A stretch of DNA of 24,105 nt, from the IMG/VR virus record IMGVR_UViG_3300005617_000520, positions 1 to 24,105 of that record. One strand, 5' to 3'. Below, piece by piece: positions 4,968 to 17,314 of the stretch; positions within the stretch are counted from its first letter, which is position 1; every line of letters starts with the position of its first letter. The notes below the pieces were generated by a model, which saw nothing but the letters and a program-made list of their open reading frames with translations, was not told the DNA's origin and made no database searches. This stretch comes from a virus. A program made the position numbers and the translations under genes.

Positions 4968-5495
4968 TTAATTTTTGTGAACTCTATCATAATCCGGATT
5001 TCCTGGCTCCCAAAACTTTGCGGTTTGCTTTGGCTCTTGAATTTTGTTCGAAGAACGGTTTTTCTCATTAGTATAATTATTAGAATCTTTAGTTAGATGT
5101 AGGACACTATGTCCTAGGTTTTGAGATTTTAAATGCATATTTGTCCTAGGGGGTAGGACATTTTGTCCTAGGTTGTTTAATATATTTCCAGTTAAGTATT
5201 TATACATTTGGCCGTTGTCTATTTTGTTTACTTCAATAATTTTTATATTAATTAATCTGGGAATTCTTCTCCGAATTGTTCGAGATGTGGAACCGATATA
5301 ATTTGCAATTTGATTATGTGATATTTTAATTTCAAATTTTCCAGATTTAGAAAAATTCATATCTATGCAATCGCATAAATAACGAATAATTTCTCTATCA
5401 ACGGAATTTAATTTGTATTTTAGAGATTCTTTTGAATTCAAAAAAATGGATGCTAGAAAAGAAGCTTTATGTTTGATATTATTTGTTTGTTGCAT
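4968..5495 (-). CDS. Winged-HTH replication-initiator-like protein with in-gene repeats
   Basis: 175 aa. Residues about 30-90 form a winged helix-turn-helix: a helix around VDREIIRYLCDCID, then recognition region KISHNQIANYIGSTSRTIRRRIPRL, then the wing KIIEVNKIDNG. Past residue 105 the protein becomes low complexity, with two copies of a NLG(Q/H)(N/S)VL peptide encoded by two 17-bp DNA palindromes. A Ser/Asn-rich stretch follows, then a FWEPGNPDYDRVHKN tail. A DNA-binding N terminus plus repeats inside the gene plus an adjacent AT-rich tract is the arrangement of lambda O, whose origin lies in the O gene. It could instead be a plain regulator that binds its own gene. The ribosome site AGAGG lies within an ACTAC/GTAGT inverted repeat. 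Confidence 0.7.
   Translation of the reverse strand: MQQTNNIKHKASFLASIFLNSKESLKYKLNSVDREIIRYLCDCIDMNFSKSGKFEIKISHNQIANYIGSTSRTIRRRIPRLINIKIIEVNKIDNGQMYKYLTGNILNNLGQNVLPPRTNMHLKSQNLGHSVLHLTKDSNNYTNEKNRSSNKIQEPKQTAKFWEPGNPDYDRVHKN
5100..5170. repeat. In-gene palindromic iterons, TAGGACA-N3-TGTCCTA
   Basis: Two 17-bp palindromes with identical arms: TAGGACACTATGTCCTA (5100-5116) and TAGGACATTTTGTCCTA (5154-5170). A further half site TGTCCTA lies at 5142-5148. All lie inside the initiator-like gene. On the coding-strand downstream side (5059-5098) the DNA is AT-rich. The arms are conserved at synonymous positions and the central 3 nt vary, as expected for protein-binding sites. Likely initiator binding sites / replication origin. 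Confidence 0.7.
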
Positions 5496-8896: not shown

Positions 8897-10414
8897 ATGG
8901 ATTCTAGTCTAAAAGAAAAACTATTAGACCTCACCAAATTCGCTCCAGCTTTTTTTACGATTAGGACAAAAGCCGGAACTCCGACTAAGTTCACGCTCAA
9001 TAAAGCACAGCTATTTGTCCATGATAGACTCCAAACACAACTGAGAGAAACCGGAAAAGTTAGAGCTATTTTATTGAAAGGCCGACAACAGGGCATGTCT
9101 ACACTGATACAGGCACGATATTTACATAGGGTTATAACAACACGAGGAAAGAAAGCGTTTATTCTTACGCATGAAGCGGAAGCTACCAAAAATCTATTTG
9201 AGATGACAAAGAGGTATTATGACAACTTGCCAGAAGGATTGTGCCCCAAAGCGGATAAATCAAGCGCTAAAGAATTGCGTTTTAGTCATTTTGATTCTGG
9301 TTATAGTGTGGGAACTGCTGGCAATAAAGGCACTGGAAGAAGTCAAACAATACAACTCTTTCATGGCAGCGAGTGCGCATTCTGGGAACATACAGACGAT
9401 CATGCTACCGGCGTCTTGCAAGCTATATCGAGTGAAGCTGAAACCGAAATAATTCTTGAATCTACAGCTAATGGTATTGGAAATTTCTTTCATAAGATGT
9501 GGTGTAGTGCATCAAGTGGATCAAGTGATTATCAAGCGATATTTGTGCCTTGGTACTGGCAAGATGAGTATAAAGCGAGAACACATAACTTTAAACTCAC
9601 AGATGAAGAAGAGGAAATTTACGCTTTATACTATCAAGACGGTTTAACAATCGATCATATGGAATGGCGCAGAGTTAAGATATCAAGTCTTTCAGGAGAC
9701 GAAGAAGCTGGGCTTGAGCTATTCAAACAAGAATACCCAATGACGGCTGAAGAAGCCTTCAGAAACCCGATAGACAATGTTTTTATTAATGCTAAGCATG
9801 TAATGAAAGCAAGAAAGACTATAGTTGAAAGCGAAACTAATTTAATCATTGGTGTTGACCCAGCTATAGGAAATAATGATAGAACTTGTATTATTCGGAG
9901 AAAAGGCCGTCTTGCGTACAAAATGGAAAGTTTCCGAAATCATAATACTATGGAAATATGTGGTCGATTGGTTCAGATCATTAAGACCGAACAACCTGCT
10001 AAAATTTATGTTGATTGTATTGGTATTGGAGCTGGCATTGTTGATCGTATGCGTGAACTTGGATATGAACAGGTTGAAGGCGTTAACGTTGCGAGAATGC
10101 CAAATCTAAAAGATAAGTTTAGAAATCTTCGTGCGGAGCTTTATTGGGAGTTGAGGGAATGGCTTTGCCAGGAAATGCCTGTGCAAATCCCAGACAGTGA
10201 CGAGCTTCACGGTGATTTATGTGGGATGGGTTTTAAATATACGTCAAATGGATTGTTACAGATAGAGGGTAAGGATCAAATGAAGGCTCGTGGTATGCCT
10301 TCACCTGATACCGCAGACGCACTGATGCTAACATTTTATGCAGGAACATACGAATCGTCATTAAATTTAACACCTCCAAGAATGCCTTTAGCACGTCCAG
10401 GATTCTTTGTATAG
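8897..10414 (+). CDS. terL: Large terminase subunit
   Basis: 505 aa, about the usual length. ATPase domain: variant Walker A LKGRQQGMST (residues 60-69), Walker B region TIQLFHGSECAFWE (151-164) and coupling motif ILESTANG (186-193). Nuclease domain: GVDPAIGNNDRT (Asp 321), YVDCIGIGAG (Asp 373) and PDTADALMLTF (Asp 471, Asp 474), the RNase H-like metal-binding acidic set. The enzyme cuts concatemeric DNA and pumps it into the procapsid through the portal. The ribosome site is weak (GGAACATAACG). Confidence 0.95.
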   Translation: MDSSLKEKLLDLTKFAPAFFTIRTKAGTPTKFTLNKAQLFVHDRLQTQLRETGKVRAILLKGRQQGMSTLIQARYLHRVITTRGKKAFILTHEAEATKNLFEMTKRYYDNLPEGLCPKADKSSAKELRFSHFDSGYSVGTAGNKGTGRSQTIQLFHGSECAFWEHTDDHATGVLQAISSEAETEIILESTANGIGNFFHKMWCSASSGSSDYQAIFVPWYWQDEYKARTHNFKLTDEEEEIYALYYQDGLTIDHMEWRRVKISSLSGDEEAGLELFKQEYPMTAEEAFRNPIDNVFINAKHVMKARKTIVESETNLIIGVDPAIGNNDRTCIIRRKGRLAYKMESFRNHNTMEICGRLVQIIKTEQPAKIYVDCIGIGAGIVDRMRELGYEQVEGVNVARMPNLKDKFRNLRAELYWELREWLCQEMPVQIPDSDELHGDLCGMGFKYTSNGLLQIEGKDQMKARGMPSPDTADALMLTFYAGTYESSLNLTPPRMPLARPGFFV

Positions 10415-10477
10415 TAAATTGTTATTTTTTTATGCATAATGGCACGATGCTATTATAACGAAAAGGATTTTTCCGAT

Positions 10478-12619
10478 ATGGCTGAAAAAGATTCGGTTAA
10501 AGCTCAAAAAATGCGTGAAGATGTTCGACGATGGGATGATGCAAATAAGAGGAATAATGCGCATTACCATGAAATGACTAATTTCATTATGGGTCAGCAA
10601 TGGGAAGATCAAGAAGCAAAGCTATTTGAAGATTATAAGAAAATGCCATTGACGGCTAATAAGCTTGCTCCGATGATGAACCATATGCTTGGTGAACAAA
10701 GGCAAAATACGCCAAATTTACAGATAGAACCCGCAGAAGATGTCGAAGAACAAGCAGCGGAAGTCAGAGAAGCATTAATCAAAGAAATCACATTCAGTTC
10801 TGATGCAACGGCCATATATCAAACAGCCTTCGAGCAAGCAGTCATAGGTGGATTTGGAGCTTATTGTATTGTACCAGAGTATGATGGTAACGACTCTTTT
10901 GATCAATTACCTCGTCTTATGGCATTTAAAGATCCAACAAAGTGTTTCTGGGATTTAGGAGCTGAACACTATTGTAAAGTCGATGGGATGTATTCTGGAT
11001 TTCGTACCACAATGTCACGTAGAAAATTTAGATCTATATGGGGAAAAGAAGTTGAACGCGATATAGGGGATAGTTCAACAGACGTAACGGATACAGACAA
11101 CATCACTACTACATTCAGTGATGAACAGAGTATAACTGTTATAAATATGTTTGAGAGACAATCTAAAAAATCAGTTCTTTATCAATTATCGAATGGCGAA
11201 AGTATTTCTAAAGCAGATCTTAAAAAACTAGAAAAAGTAAAAATGGGAAATACCAAGTTTTATATTTTTGATGGCGAACCTGTTACCGTGGTCAAAGAAA
11301 GAGATATTACAGATGATACAATTATTTGGTCAAAATGGGGTGGAGATTATAGATTAGAAGAAACGACCTTCCCTACGAAAATTATGCTCCCTATGATTTA
11401 TGTAGATCAAAAGTCATATTGGGACAAAAATGGAAAACAAGTCAATCGATCATTTTTCAAAGATGCTAAAGACACACAACGATTCATCAACTATTTGCGT
11501 ACACAAATTGCATATCTCATTAAAGTTAGTAGATACGATCAATTCCTAGTTTCCAAGAAAAACGTAGCGGGTGCTGATACGCAAGCCATGTGGAGAGATC
11601 CTTCCACGCAGCAAGGCGGTTTATGGTATGACGAATCACCCAATGGTAATGTACCAATTCAATTAAGACCGCCTGAATTATCAGCATCACTCGGAATGCA
11701 ATACGAATCAGCAACACAAGATCTACAAATGACAACTGGTATGTACGATACAATGATGGGGAATCAAGGAAATGAAATTTCAGGAGATGCCGTTGATTCG
11801 CGTATTAAAGCGGGTAGCCTTAATACTTTTTTACCTCGCTCTAGTCTCGATCGCGCTATCACCTGTGGTGGCGCTATTATTAATGAAATGATTCCAAATC
11901 TATTTGATACGCAACGAAAGATGAAACTTAACCTTAAGAGTCGAGGAAATGCTAGCGTTGAACTAAATAAGCCAATGGATGACTATGGAATGCAAGTTCA
12001 AAACGATATGACAAAGGGTAAGTTCAAGATACGACTTATTGCGGGTCAAAGTTATGAAGGACAGAAAACAGAGGATCGTGAGAGCATGGATTTAGTCTTG
12101 AGCAAAAATCCTGGAATGTTTAGTTTGATTGCAGATCTATATGTTGAATCACTGCCGATGAGTAATAACATTGAAATGCGTAATAGATTACGTACTGTTG
12201 TACCGCCAGAGATTATTCAAGCTGGAAAAACAGGCGAGCCTATACCGCCTAAAACACCTCAGCAAGATCCTATGGTAGTGCTCAAACAGCAAGAATTACA
12301 AATGAAAATGCAAAATAGCATGATGGAACATCAAGCGAAAGCCCATGAATTACAATTACAAGAACAAAAAATGATGATGGAATCTCATCAAGCTGGCGTT
12401 GATTTCACAAAAGAAATACAAAAAATTCAAATACAACAGAAGGAAATTGAAGCACAAATAGTTGATCAGAAAATGAGATTTGAAGCTGAAATGGCAAACA
12501 TAATGCATCAAGCACATATGAATCATACGCAAAATGTTGTGAAGATTTTAACTCATCAACCTAATCATTTTAAAGTAAAGGAAGGAAAATCGAATGGAAG
12601 TGAAAGTGCAGAGCAATAA
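10478..12619 (+). CDS. Portal protein (P22-like)
   Basis: 713 aa from ATG 10478, chosen because AAAAGGATTT lies before it; an in-frame ATG at 10439 has no ribosome site. P22-like features: a helical N terminus ending in MGQQWED-QEAKLFEDYKKMPLTANKLAPMMNHMLGEQRQN (about residues 35-75 of this start), a central wing/stem region, and a long Gln/Met-rich C-terminal helix (about 610-690, QQDPMVVLKQQELQMKMQN), like the P22 barrel. Twelve copies form the DNA channel at one capsid vertex. P22 portal is 725 aa, so the size fits. The end overlaps the next gene by 26 bp. Confidence 0.88.
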   Translation: MAEKDSVKAQKMREDVRRWDDANKRNNAHYHEMTNFIMGQQWEDQEAKLFEDYKKMPLTANKLAPMMNHMLGEQRQNTPNLQIEPAEDVEEQAAEVREALIKEITFSSDATAIYQTAFEQAVIGGFGAYCIVPEYDGNDSFDQLPRLMAFKDPTKCFWDLGAEHYCKVDGMYSGFRTTMSRRKFRSIWGKEVERDIGDSSTDVTDTDNITTTFSDEQSITVINMFERQSKKSVLYQLSNGESISKADLKKLEKVKMGNTKFYIFDGEPVTVVKERDITDDTIIWSKWGGDYRLEETTFPTKIMLPMIYVDQKSYWDKNGKQVNRSFFKDAKDTQRFINYLRTQIAYLIKVSRYDQFLVSKKNVAGADTQAMWRDPSTQQGGLWYDESPNGNVPIQLRPPELSASLGMQYESATQDLQMTTGMYDTMMGNQGNEISGDAVDSRIKAGSLNTFLPRSSLDRAITCGGAIINEMIPNLFDTQRKMKLNLKSRGNASVELNKPMDDYGMQVQNDMTKGKFKIRLIAGQSYEGQKTEDRESMDLVLSKNPGMFSLIADLYVESLPMSNNIEMRNRLRTVVPPEIIQAGKTGEPIPPKTPQQDPMVVLKQQELQMKMQNSMMEHQAKAHELQLQEQKMMMESHQAGVDFTKEIQKIQIQQKEIEAQIVDQKMRFEAEMANIMHQAHMNHTQNVVKILTHQPNHFKVKEGKSNGSESAEQ

Positions 12620-13466
12620 AGTTCATGTCAATAAAATAGATGATATTTTAGTTGGTGTTACACCAAAGACGCCAGAGTTTGCAGAAGAACAAAAGGCAAT
12701 CGATTCAGAGGAACCCGAACAAGAATCTCAAGAATTAGAAGCGACAGAACCTGAACAAGAAGAGGTGAAAGAACCAGAAAAAGAAAAAGAATCTAAAAAA
12801 GAAATTGAGGAAAAGGAATCTAAAGAAGAAGATCATCTAGATGAATATGGTAACGAAATAGAAAAACCACGTCTTTATACAGATGAAGATGTTCAAAGAA
12901 TGATTAAAGAGAGATTACAACGTGGTCAATCTCAAATACAGCCTGAAATTCAGCAAGCTGCTGATAACTTCCAAGCTGACCCTAACAATCCAGAAGATTG
13001 GGAAGTACAGCTAGAAAAGTTCATAGAAAAAACAACTCATAAACTAGAGAAAAAAAAACAAACTAAAGCATGGCAAGAGCAAGAGCTTCAGAAGCAGCAA
13101 GATTTTGAAGTTAAGTTTACGCATGGCATGAATAAGTATCGAGACTTTAAGGAAACAGTCGGACAAATGCCCATTACTGATTCAATCATGATGGCAACGA
13201 GAGATATGAATGATCCAGCTGCTTTTTTATATGCCGCATCAAAATTGCATCCAGAAGAAGTTAAAAGAATTGCAAGTCTGACAGATGCTTTCGCTCAAGC
13301 TAGAGAAATTGGAAAGCTTGATGAAAGAATGAGAAAGACGCGTGCAATTTCAAAAGCACCGGCGCCTTTAGCTCAAAACAAAGGCGATATGTCACCTAAA
13401 TATGTACCGAAACAGAGTATAGATCAAAAGATTGCAAGTCATGCTAAGGCTAAGAATAGACGATGA
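12594..13466 (+). CDS. Scaffolding protein
   Basis: 290 aa. Residues about 25-85 are extremely acidic (Glu/Lys/Ser-rich), the middle carries HLDEYGNEIEKPRLYTDEDVQRMI followed by a long coiled coil (KFIEKTTHKLEKKKQT...), and the C terminus is basic and helical (SIDQKIASHAKAKNRR). This is the usual layout of phage scaffolds, whose basic C-terminal hairpin binds coat protein. The gene lies between portal and coat, as in P22 (gene 8, 303 aa). Ribosome site AAGGAAGG. Confidence 0.78.
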   Translation: MEVKVQSNKVHVNKIDDILVGVTPKTPEFAEEQKAIDSEEPEQESQELEATEPEQEEVKEPEKEKESKKEIEEKESKEEDHLDEYGNEIEKPRLYTDEDVQRMIKERLQRGQSQIQPEIQQAADNFQADPNNPEDWEVQLEKFIEKTTHKLEKKKQTKAWQEQELQKQQDFEVKFTHGMNKYRDFKETVGQMPITDSIMMATRDMNDPAAFLYAASKLHPEEVKRIASLTDAFAQAREIGKLDERMRKTRAISKAPAPLAQNKGDMSPKYVPKQSIDQKIASHAKAKNRR

Positions 13467-14424: not shown

Positions 14425-14570
14425 TCAGGATGAAATAATCGTAATCAGGTGATTTCCCAGATCTGGTAAATCTGGGAGGTCTCGTTTTGTACAGAAAATT
14501 TAATGTCAGGCAAATTATATCGTGTTGTACCGATAAATCAACAGATTGATTTGCCTGCAAGGAAAATATC
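14425..14570. promoter_or_regulatory. Intergenic control region with two inverted repeats
   Basis: TCCCAGAT (14455-14462) and ATCTGGGA (14470-14477) form an 8-bp stem with a 7-nt loop, followed by CGTTTTG, which is too short a T-run to call a terminator with confidence. CAGGCAAAT (14507-14515) and ATTTGCCTG (14549-14557) are perfect 9-bp inverted arms 33 nt apart, the second ending 1 bp before the AAGGAAA ribosome site of the next gene. Possible attenuator plus operator pair. Confidence 0.45.
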
Positions 14571-15188
14571 ATGTCATTTGAGCTCAATTTAGCCATCATC
14601 CCCAATCGTATTTATTATCTGGAAGGCGTTCAATTATCTTACATTAAAATTTATGTCCATATTTTTAATCTTTGGCATAGCAATAAGCCTTGTTTTATTG
14701 GGATTAAAGAATTTATGCAAAGAACTGGTTTAAAGAAAACAGCAGTTTATGACGCTCTTAACTTTTTTGAAAAAATGGGAGAAATAAAAAGGGTCACAAA
14801 AGGAAATAAAAGATACATTTTGCAACCTGTTAAAGCAATTGAAACTGAAATTGAGGATGTAGATGAGCTACCGGAATCGAGATCAAATAATAATCATGTT
14901 TCCGTTGTAGCGGAAAAGGTTTCCGCGATAGCGGAAAATCTTTCCGCCAACGCGGAACATAATAATAAATATAATAATAAATATAATAAAAGCTTTTGCG
15001 CTTCGCCTGAAAAGACAAAAAACGAACAGCAAAAGCGGGAGAATGAGAGAAAGCACAGTTTTGCAGAAAAGAAGCCTCCACTGGCAAGTGTTGAAAATCA
15101 AACTACATCCTATGATCCCAATAGAGCAGGGTCTGCTCTAAAAGCAAGCATTCACCTAGAGGATTATATTAAACGGCAGCATCATTGA
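14571..15188 (+). CDS. HTH replication-initiator-like protein with in-gene iterons
   Basis: 205 aa. Residues about 20-85 form a winged helix: a helix IKIYVHIFNLWHSN, then IGIKEFMQRTGLKKTAVYDALNFFEKMG as the helix-turn-helix, then a wing KRVTKGNKRYIL. Residues 110-130 are three 7-residue repeats (VSVVAEK, VSAIAEN, LSANAEH), encoded by three 21-bp palindromic DNA repeats. NNKYNNKYNK, encoded by an AT-only tract, follows. The C terminus is charged and probably disordered up to a short amphipathic end. A DNA-binding head, in-gene iterons and adjacent AT-rich DNA resemble lambda O and its origin. It is not closely similar to the initiator-like protein at 4968-5495. Ribosome site AAGGAAAA. Confidence 0.72.
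   Translation: MSFELNLAIIPNRIYYLEGVQLSYIKIYVHIFNLWHSNKPCFIGIKEFMQRTGLKKTAVYDALNFFEKMGEIKRVTKGNKRYILQPVKAIETEIEDVDELPESRSNNNHVSVVAEKVSAIAENLSANAEHNNKYNNKYNKSFCASPEKTKNEQQKRENERKHSFAEKKPPLASVENQTTSYDPNRAGSALKASIHLEDYIKRQHH
14898..14960. repeat. Three 21-bp in-gene palindromic iterons
   Basis: Units at 14898-14918, 14919-14939 and 14940-14960, each of the form TTTCCG-N5-GCGGAA with variable centres (TTGTA, CGATA, CCAAC). The arms are palindromic and fully conserved; the centre varies. The period is seven codons, so the reading frame is kept. Confidence 0.85.
14961..14990. repeat. AT-only tandem repeat next to the iterons (possible unwinding element)
   Basis: AATAATAAATAT is repeated twice (14961-14972, 14973-14984) and followed by AATAAA. 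It contains no G or C over 30 bp, in the position where replication origins such as lambda ori have their AT-rich melting region. Confidence 0.7.
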
Positions 15189-15886
15189 TGGGATTTGAGA
15201 TAGTCGATTGCGGATTGCAAAAGTTCTATCGATTCATAGAAACCGCCTATTCCAGTATTACACCTATGGCATAGTAAACCTCTAATCTTTTTGGTGACGT
15301 GACAATGATCTATAGCAAGATTCTTTGTTCCTTGTTTTGAATGTGGCGAGACCATTGATTCGGGTTTATTGCATATTTTACATAAATAATTTTGACTTAT
15401 TAGCATATTTTTATAATCTTTTATTGAGACTTTTATATAATTTCCTGGTTTTCCAAGATGGATATAGTTTCTAACTTGTTTATATCCTATAGGTCTGTTA
15501 TCTCGTGCCTTTTCATATCTAATTGAATTACAATATCTGCATTGTGACCAGTTTCTATTTTTTACTTTGTAAACTTCATGTTTTTTTAATTCGCCGTGAA
15601 TATTACAAATTTTAACAATTCCTTCAGACATTTTTTTCTTTTCTGGTAATTCTGTGGATTTATGACGAGACATTCTTACACGATGCATTATACAGAGACT
15701 TGATCTTTGTTTTTCATCTCTGGGATTATTACAACTTTCGACTCTACATGTTCCACCATATCTTTTTCTATTCGGTTTATCATAACTACCATAAACTTTC
15801 ATACGCCAATTATGTGCTTGGCAGATATTTCCTGACCGAACTAAATTAATACAGTCATTTATTGTACATTTATCGCCTTTTGCCAT
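15182..15886 (-). CDS. Endonuclease VII-like HNH nuclease
   Basis: 234 aa. The C-terminal domain (about 160-230) has zinc ligands CKIC (169-172) and CHRC (206-209) and the catalytic block LAIDHCHVTKKIRGLLC (190-206), ending in AIDYL: the recombination endonuclease VII family pattern. The N terminus has two zinc modules of the C-x4-C...C-x2-H form, CTINDC/CQAH (7-25) and CRVESC/CIMH (47-68). Endonuclease VII resolves branched DNA before packaging, but free-standing HNH genes of this type are also mobile. It runs opposite to all neighbours, converges on the initiator gene with a 7-bp overlap, and has its own AGGAG site. Confidence 0.85.
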   Translation of the reverse strand: MAKGDKCTINDCINLVRSGNICQAHNWRMKVYGSYDKPNRKRYGGTCRVESCNNPRDEKQRSSLCIMHRVRMSRHKSTELPEKKKMSEGIVKICNIHGELKKHEVYKVKNRNWSQCRYCNSIRYEKARDNRPIGYKQVRNYIHLGKPGNYIKVSIKDYKNMLISQNYLCKICNKPESMVSPHSKQGTKNLAIDHCHVTKKIRGLLCHRCNTGIGGFYESIELLQSAIDYLKSHQ

Positions 15887-15898
15887 TAGTATCTCCTC

Positions 15899-16057
15899 TT
15901 GTTTTTTGTAAAAATTAAAAGCATAATTTATTCAAGCGTGTAGATAAGACAGTTCCGCTTCTGTCAAAAGAGCGCGAAAGCGTCCTCCGCTCGGACAATG
16001 TAAAAAGAACGCCATAACTGGCATTAATTTATATCATTGTACGATGAGGGTATCTAC
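15899..16057 (+). promoter_or_regulatory. Coat-gene promoter and structured leader
   Basis: TTGTTT (15899-15904), a 17-bp spacer, CATAAT (15922-15927, 5 of 6 to the -10). The resulting leader of about 120 nt holds several small hairpins: GACAG/CTGTC (15948-15965), GTCC/GGAC (15982-15996) and GCCA/TGGC (16011-16022). It would give the coat gene its own transcript despite the reversed endonuclease gene upstream. Confidence 0.45.
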
Positions 16058-17314
16058 ATGTCAACAAATATATTTGAGGTTACGAGTTATGTGCTCGACG
16101 AAACCTTTATTCGATTCATCAATTACCTCAATTTCGCAAAAGTTGCAAATCGCAACCTCGAAGGCGATTTTAAATCACTTAAATACGCAACAGGCCAAAC
16201 AATTAACTATCGTTTAGAAGAAAGATATCTAGGCGGAGAAGGTGCGACAGCAACTTCAGAAGCGCGAGTGCAGGTCATTCGTCCTTTAACGATTAGTAAA
16301 CAATTCCATACAATGGTTGAGTTTACAGGCTTTGAATTAACATTCGATCGTGCACGTGACCAACCCTATTTAGACATGATGCTTAATCCACGAGCTAAAA
16401 CATTGGCTAATAAGGTTGAGAAATTCATCGCAAGTGACACATTTCAAAAGCAAGTTTATCAATACGTTGGAACTCCTGGTGTTGCTATTAGTTTTGCTAC
16501 AGTAACCGAAGCAGACGCTTATATGACGGCTTTAGGCATACCTGAAGACGGTAACCGATATTTTGCTAACGATCCTTTCGTATCAGCGGGATTGTCAGTA
16601 GCTCTGCAAAACGTATTTAACATGACTGTTAACCGTGGCGCATTGCTGGATGGTTTTATCGGCCACTTATCAGGCTTTGATTTCTTCAAAACTAACTTCT
16701 TAAATCGACAAATTGCTGGCACCCCTGGTGCGACTGGTGGAACACCTCCAACAGGCTTTGTTGCTGCTGGTATCATCACGAACGGCCCGGTTACAGGCGG
16801 AAATAGTTTTGTTTTATCTGGGTTGTCTACCTCAACAGGCCAAGTATTATTTAATGTTGGCGATCTAGTAACTCTCGATGTAGCCGCTGAAGTATATATG
16901 ATTAATCCATTAACATATGAACCCATGTATAACAAAACAGCTCAATTTGTTGTTGCTGCACAGTTAATTTCAGATGGTTCTGGTACGCAAACATTAACTG
17001 TTAATCCAACAATTGTAGTTAGTGGTGCACGTCAAAATATTTCAGCTGCTATCCCTGATAATACACAATTGTATTTAGCCACTAGCCATAACGTATCAAT
17101 TGCTTATCACAATCAAGCGGTTGTGTTTGCAGCTCCTCCAATCAAGGAATTGAAGGGTGGTGTTGAAGTTATTACCACATACAGTGATTTGTACAAAATG
17201 GCAATGACTTACACATTGGGCGCTGATATCCGAAATTACATTCAATTAGATCGTTTGGATGTTATTTGCGGTGACGCAATCAATCCGGAATTTGCCGTAA
17301 TCGTAATGTCCTAA
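16058..17314 (+). CDS. Major coat protein (P22 gp5-like)
   Basis: 418 aa, close to P22 coat (430 aa). The ATG at 16058 was chosen for the GAGGG ribosome site; an ATG seven codons upstream has none. Features: N-terminal helix ETFIRFINYLNFAKVANRN; GATATSEARVQVI-x-PLTISKQFHTMVEFTG, where the P22-like coats have their conserved early strand region; RAKTLANKVEKFIASD spine-type helix; a Gly/Thr-rich insertion (about 225-290); and a C-terminal IQLDRLDVICGDAINPEFAVIV strand. Forms the icosahedral shell with the HK97-type fold around the scaffold. Confidence 0.88.
   Translation: MSTNIFEVTSYVLDETFIRFINYLNFAKVANRNLEGDFKSLKYATGQTINYRLEERYLGGEGATATSEARVQVIRPLTISKQFHTMVEFTGFELTFDRARDQPYLDMMLNPRAKTLANKVEKFIASDTFQKQVYQYVGTPGVAISFATVTEADAYMTALGIPEDGNRYFANDPFVSAGLSVALQNVFNMTVNRGALLDGFIGHLSGFDFFKTNFLNRQIAGTPGATGGTPPTGFVAAGIITNGPVTGGNSFVLSGLSTSTGQVLFNVGDLVTLDVAAEVYMINPLTYEPMYNKTAQFVVAAQLISDGSGTQTLTVNPTIVVSGARQNISAAIPDNTQLYLATSHNVSIAYHNQAVVFAAPPIKELKGGVEVITTYSDLYKMAMTYTLGADIRNYIQLDRLDVICGDAINPEFAVIVMS

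Follow-up and report, generated by a model that had tools for sequence, protein, structure and literature searches.

A probable lambda-O-like replication cassette with its origin inside the initiator gene, likely acquired by a P22-like phage

Replication origins that lie within an initiator gene are textbook knowledge for lambda and, to our knowledge, are seldom annotated in metagenomic phages. The origins of lambda and the Stx phages lie midway through gene O and consist of iterons with an AT-rich tract (PMC7466680); in lambda, these are 18-bp iterons and a 38-bp AT tract (PMC3349717). In SPP1, with its protein gp38, oriL lies inside gene 38 and oriR in the late region (PMC6316719). The N-terminal domain of pSK41-type RepA_N initiators binds boxes located centrally in rep, the linker being encoded by the origin (PMC5703833), and repC of the repABC plasmids contains the origin within the initiator gene by an A+T-rich stretch (PMC3155836). 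For RepA phages, an in-gene origin has been suggested as one possibility in a mycobacteriophage study (PMC7157519).

Here we analysed a gene with a similar layout (gene 1) in an IMG/VR virus record; the window, that is, the whole stretch of DNA analysed, comprises 24,105 bases and belongs to a soil-type bacterial virus, a P22-like phage. Gene 1 and the structural genes of the window are as follows.

8897-10414: terminase large subunit
10439-12619: portal
12594-13466: scaffold-like gene, named from position and composition
14451-14481, plus strand: terminator-like hairpin upstream of gene 1, from a consensus scan only
14571-15188, plus strand: gene 1, initiator-like protein of 205 amino acids (ORF with AAGGA ahead of the ATG; replication initiation or O-like PHROG matches)
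14601-14828, plus strand: winged-helix DNA-binding domain, residues 11-86 (AlphaFold)
14736-14774, plus strand: recognition helix, residues 56-68, KTAVYDALNFFEK, at the covariation peak
14899-14916, plus strand: iteron 1, TTTCCGTTGTAGCGGAAA
14920-14937, plus strand: iteron 2, TTTCCGCGATAGCGGAAA
14941-14958, plus strand: iteron 3, TTTCCGCCAACGCGGAAC
about 14960-14989, plus strand: A/T-only tract of 30 bp, presumed unwinding element
14990-15185, plus strand: C-terminal tail of gene 1 (low model confidence, no recognised domain)
16037-17314: coat

Gene 1 is made up of a winged helix, a probably disordered linker and a short tail. AlphaFold, given the N-domain aligned with 14 homologues, modelled a winged helix with confidence (mean pLDDT 86.6), in agreement with the helix-turn-helix noticed in the first-pass annotation of this DNA; in the full-length model, for which only four sequences were used, nearly all of residues 87-205 including the repeats fell below pLDDT 50. 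Profile searches matched gene 1 to PHROG 186, 270, 678 and 345 (4e-8 to 2e-7; replication initiation or O-like), and a Pfam domain search gave no RepA_N match. Fold searches with the winged helix returned mostly generic winged helices; matches to 4pql, 4pt7 and 5kbj (labelled DNA binding protein, initiator or Rep-DNA complex), presumably RepA_N proteins, were weak and not significant (E 0.025-0.06). The tail contains no detectable replisome-contact domain and no FWxPGxPD(Y/W)(D/E)R motif. Whole gene 1 as a direct query found no matches in viral_contigs, genome_contigs or phages and one non-significant match in plasmids, and no sequence similarity to isolated phages was found.

Directly 3' of the winged-helix domain lie three dyads, TTTCCG-N6-CGGAA(A/C), spaced by 21 bp. 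The first-pass description of in-frame 21-bp units with TTTCCG/GCGGAA arms and N5 centres is exact (unit starts at 14898, 14919 and 14940; TTTCCG-N5-GCGGAA at 14899, 14920 and 14941), as is that of a 30-bp tract without G or C right behind them. A better description of the repeat is a dyad of 16 bp, TTCCG-N6-CGGAA, which in copies 1 and 2 extends to 18 bp (TTTCCG-N6-CGGAAA); the repeated peptide reported as VSxxAEx is likewise present and is better worded (V/L)SxxAE(K/N/H). The A/T-only tract is itself a 12-bp repeat, two copies of TAATAATAAATA followed by TAATAA. With up to two mismatches, the dyad pattern matched nine times in the window, a count reached in none of 100 dinucleotide shuffles. 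When the peptide and the codon usage of the window were held fixed, all 15 five-bp arm pairs arose in 2.4e-4 of random back-translations, and the codons used in the arms are uncommon in the window (TCC, 6% of Ser; GCG, 14% of Ala).

Homologues were reached through TerL relatives and then by alignment of the gene 1 protein, with no DNA pattern of the repeats in the search; this gave 13 distinct N-domain homologues (L180 and L181 being one protein). All 13 carry two to four repeats directly after the N-domain, and in all 13 the copies stand in more than one reading frame, mostly via 22- and 23-bp spacings; the DNA, not the peptide, is therefore what is conserved. Gene 1 is the only member with 21/21 spacing in one frame. 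Nearly the same DNA encodes GIATAI and YRQSDR in L109, identical repeats encode LDLAR and SRLSE in L173, the repeats of L133 encode CHPRH and VSPMT, and three of the four copies in L178 have the TTCCG-N6-CGGAA arms of the window, one of them read in another frame. The 45 bp after the last repeat are AT-rich in every homologue (69-91% AT). These comparisons bear out the suggestion that the repeated peptide is a by-product of DNA constraint: the refuting case named in the first-pass annotation was homologues that keep the peptide and lose the palindromes, and the opposite was seen, palindromes being kept and the peptide lost. The expectation that the arms would stay conserved at synonymous sites failed; they are near-identical within a gene and mostly differ between genes, where they are replaced along with the protein. 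The comparison shows DNA-level constraint on the repeats.

Several members of the family point to replication. L177 and L179 match PHROG_270 'replication initiation protein' (1e-21 and 1e-25, respectively), and the proteins matched by the L179 C-domain carry the annotations primosomal protein, replication initiation or replisome organizer. Perfect DnaA boxes adjoin the array in L109 and L176, and in L118 they lie within it (2 of the 10 arrays tested, Poisson p=0.002, with L176 outside that test). Together with the PHROG matches of gene 1, these observations argue for a replication role.

In 11 of 14 genes, no other geometry surpassed the palindrome score of 5-N6-5, and L121, L174 and L180 scored slightly higher with another centre. 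Arms were diverse (TTCCG, GTCCG, TACCG, TATCG, TCTCG, GGCCG, CGCCG, GTGTC and others). Similarity between half-sites followed similarity between recognition helices (Mantel r=0.60, permutation p=5e-5) in this set of 14 genes, which are not phylogenetically independent and whose half-sites were partly assigned by hand; the corresponding values for the rest of the domain were r=0.24 and p=0.12, and the helix correlation persisted once the rest-of-domain effect was removed (partial r=0.57, p=1e-4). A scan with a sliding block peaked at TAVYDALNFF (r about 0.70-0.72), which is the recognition helix in the AlphaFold model. The helix correlation falls to r=0.43 (p=0.007) without the three most divergent sites. 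In L010, which only the DNA pattern retrieved, four TTCCG-N6-CGGAA dyads are set apart by multiples of 21 bp, and the recognition helix reads GKTSVYSAL where that of the window reads KKTAVYDAL; this is a single and partly search-selected case. By comparison, the sites are linked to the recognition helix encoded by their own gene, and recognition by the gene 1 winged helix of its own in-gene dyads is strongly indicated.

An unbiased scan covered 83 related phage loci, amounting to 1.04 Mb of TerL-related phage DNA, and looked for dyads repeated with identical arms. It placed all six arrays of at least three copies, and all but one of those of at least two copies, just behind winged-helix domains (judged from translations); shuffled DNA gave no dyad arrays. 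Among 20 long phage records, four of them picked for gene-1 homology, nine of 11 arrays lie behind winged-helix domains, at most one per record; 11 of the 20 records had no such array, so that the layout is not universal in relatives or the search misses it. At L003:2055-2115, iterons (GGGACGAAAAGGGCCT) overlap and run past the stop codon of a winged-helix gene, near two perfect DnaA boxes. A scan of viral_contigs for tandem TTCCG/CGGAA gave six matches, four of which are winged-helix genes, and a control search with different arms returned none. As a diagnostic by itself in genome_contigs, the tandem pattern was rejected, as it retrieved mostly unrelated repeats (Saprospiraceae, Fictibacillus and Bacteroidales). 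Tandem TTCCG-N6-CGGAA dyads spaced by 21 bp in one frame were also observed in winged-helix genes of unrelated phages or genomes (L010, L007, L009, L008 and L055), and are possibly convergent.

The window also encodes a second initiator-like protein, listed here with the other genes that bear on the setting of gene 1.

1874-2605: ParA gene
2598-2810: small candidate ParA partner, downstream
4968-5495, minus strand: gene 2, second initiator-like protein of 175 amino acids, of another winged-helix family, with tail FWEPGNPDYDRVHKN
5099-5175, minus strand: gene 2 in-gene dyads, CCTAGGACA-NNN-TGTCCTA (copies at 5153-5174 and 5099-5120, half copy between, AT-rich DNA after)
15182-15886, minus strand (opposite to gene 1): Endonuclease VII/HNH-type gene between scaffold and coat; its relatives occupy that interval in other phages, as expected of a homing endonuclease

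The arms of the gene 2 dyads (AGGACA/TGTCCT) differ from those of gene 1. A tail motif, FWxPGxPD(Y/W)(D/E)R, is found in gene 2, L090, L109 and L176, and as a variant in L108, attached to different winged helices; the gene 2 tail FWEPGNPDYDRVHKN is perhaps a short replisome-contact motif. In L090, whose TerL is 95% identical, the gene 2 tail is nearly unchanged, but the winged helix is another one and the in-gene dyads are of the GTACATATATGTAC type; helix and sites were exchanged together.

Relatives with an initiator-like gene have one each, usually upstream of terminase, and in four long relatives gene-1-type proteins are encoded upstream of terminase or portal, which is the place of gene 2 in the window. 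Gene 1 sits in the scaffold-coat interval, among late structural genes and beside the homing-type endonuclease. This interval is variable, with HNH/EndoVII relatives in G013, G019 and G028, and gene 1 is absent from it in L091 (TerL 78% identical). The location of gene 1 in a variable interval and of gene 2 at the usual initiator place makes it likely that gene 1 is an acquired extra; it is probably an acquired second initiator/origin, accessory to its phage and not its standard initiator. More speculatively, and in our view less probably than not, the phage might possess a pair of complete initiator-plus-origin cassettes that differ in specificity, the first located in the early region and the second inserted among the structural genes as a mobile 'replicon moron', with the family giving a helix/half-site code. 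If true, two cassettes would allow the phage to change from one origin to the other, to use a late origin or to exclude relatives with which it has one of them in common, and origin specificity would be predictable from the natural recognition-helix/half-site code of the family. Separately, at L002:8917-9314 (portal 70% identical), the place of gene 1 is taken by different genes that look like winged helices and are truncated where the contig ends. A scan of the window for DnaA boxes found none close to gene 1; upstream of the ParA gene, within AT-rich DNA, two perfect boxes stand face to face at 1571-1593 (TTATCCACA gaaaa TGTGGATAA), and the box pair, the ParA gene and its small partner may form a plasmid-like maintenance locus.

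Gene 1 combines the features of a lambda-O-like gene as read from sequence (N-terminal winged helix, in-gene iterons, adjoining AT tract and an O-like or replication-initiation profile), and the lambda-O-like layout put forward in the first-pass annotation fits its architecture, its replication-initiation family homology, the frame-independent repeats and the helix/half-site covariation. We consider it likely that gene 1 forms a self-contained, lambda-O-like replication cassette with an in-gene origin, and that it was acquired. The winged helix would bind the three dyads within its own linker-coding DNA, as the covariation indicates, probably as a dimer given the dyads; several bound dimers could form an O-some-like complex that helps to melt the adjacent A/T-only tract, after which the host replicative helicase would be recruited, the gene 1 tail having no recognised domain. 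The linker peptide would be a by-product of the DNA sites. Points that count against this explanation are the tail devoid of a replisome-contact domain and of the FWxPGxPD(Y/W)(D/E)R motif, the setting among late structural genes together with the absence of gene 1 in L091, the lack of a DnaA box close to gene 1, and the 21/21 spacing in place of the 22/23 usual in the family.

The same covariation would fit a regulator that acts at the in-gene dyads (as a roadblock, in autoregulation or copy control, or in late-operon silencing) with no replication start there, and the position in the structural gene region, the terminator-like hairpin upstream and the tail lacking a replisome domain suit such a protein. 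We nevertheless regard a regulator as unlikely: beyond the gene 1 array, no exact dyad copy was found at any promoter in the 24-kb window, the profile matches go to replication initiation families, and an AT-rich tract behind the array, kept in all homologues, is not needed by an operator alone.

Two further readings concern what the repeats are for. That the dyads serve as a partition centromere or host-factor site, not as a site of the encoded protein, is very improbable in our judgement; the ParA gene and the winged-helix centromere-binding proteins (AspA and TubR) among the weak fold matches speak for it, but ParA already has a candidate partner just downstream, the array remains inside the same gene in relatives, and a host factor would not explain arms that change with the recognition helix of the containing gene. 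Selection at the protein level for a VSxxAE repeat has scarcely any likelihood. It would account for the shared frame and similar peptides of the three copies in the window, yet TCC and GCG are used every time, the repeat region has very low pLDDT and frames and peptides differ among copies in all 13 homologues (for example, L109 and L133); we rejected this reading on account of the frame changes.

A lambda-O-like cassette of this description joins a known kind of in-gene origin; what is unusual is the pair of cassettes, tentative as it is, and the covariation data set. A winged helix followed by a frame-changing dyad array and an AT tract is a computable pattern that, in uncultured phages, narrows a probable origin down to about 100 bp, and the 14 helix/half-site pairs can serve directly as data for a specificity code. 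The window also raises the question of what role a second, differently addressed initiator has among late genes.

Like O of lambda and the Stx phages, gene 1 has an N-terminal DNA-binding domain, repeated sites about 18 bp long midway through the gene and an AT-rich tract directly after them. It differs from lambda O in having three sites where lambda has four, in its 5-N6-5 dyads and in a short tail without a recognised helicase-loader contact; unlike lambda, its phage has a second initiator-like gene, and no lambda-P-like partner was identified in the 24,105-base window. The origin inside the initiator gene and next to an A+T-rich stretch recalls repC, which, unlike gene 1, is without iterons. 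With the pSK41-type RepA_N initiators, gene 1 shares an N-terminal domain, central in-gene boxes and an origin-encoded linker, although there is no sequence-level link, those initiators belong to Gram-positive plasmids, and their primase-interaction domain was not recognised in gene 1. SPP1 gp38 likewise has an in-gene origin with repeats and an AT tract and a second origin segment that interrupts late genes. SPP1 also encodes a helicase and a loader, and it uses one protein for both origins, whereas in the window sites and winged helix are separate for each of the two genes.
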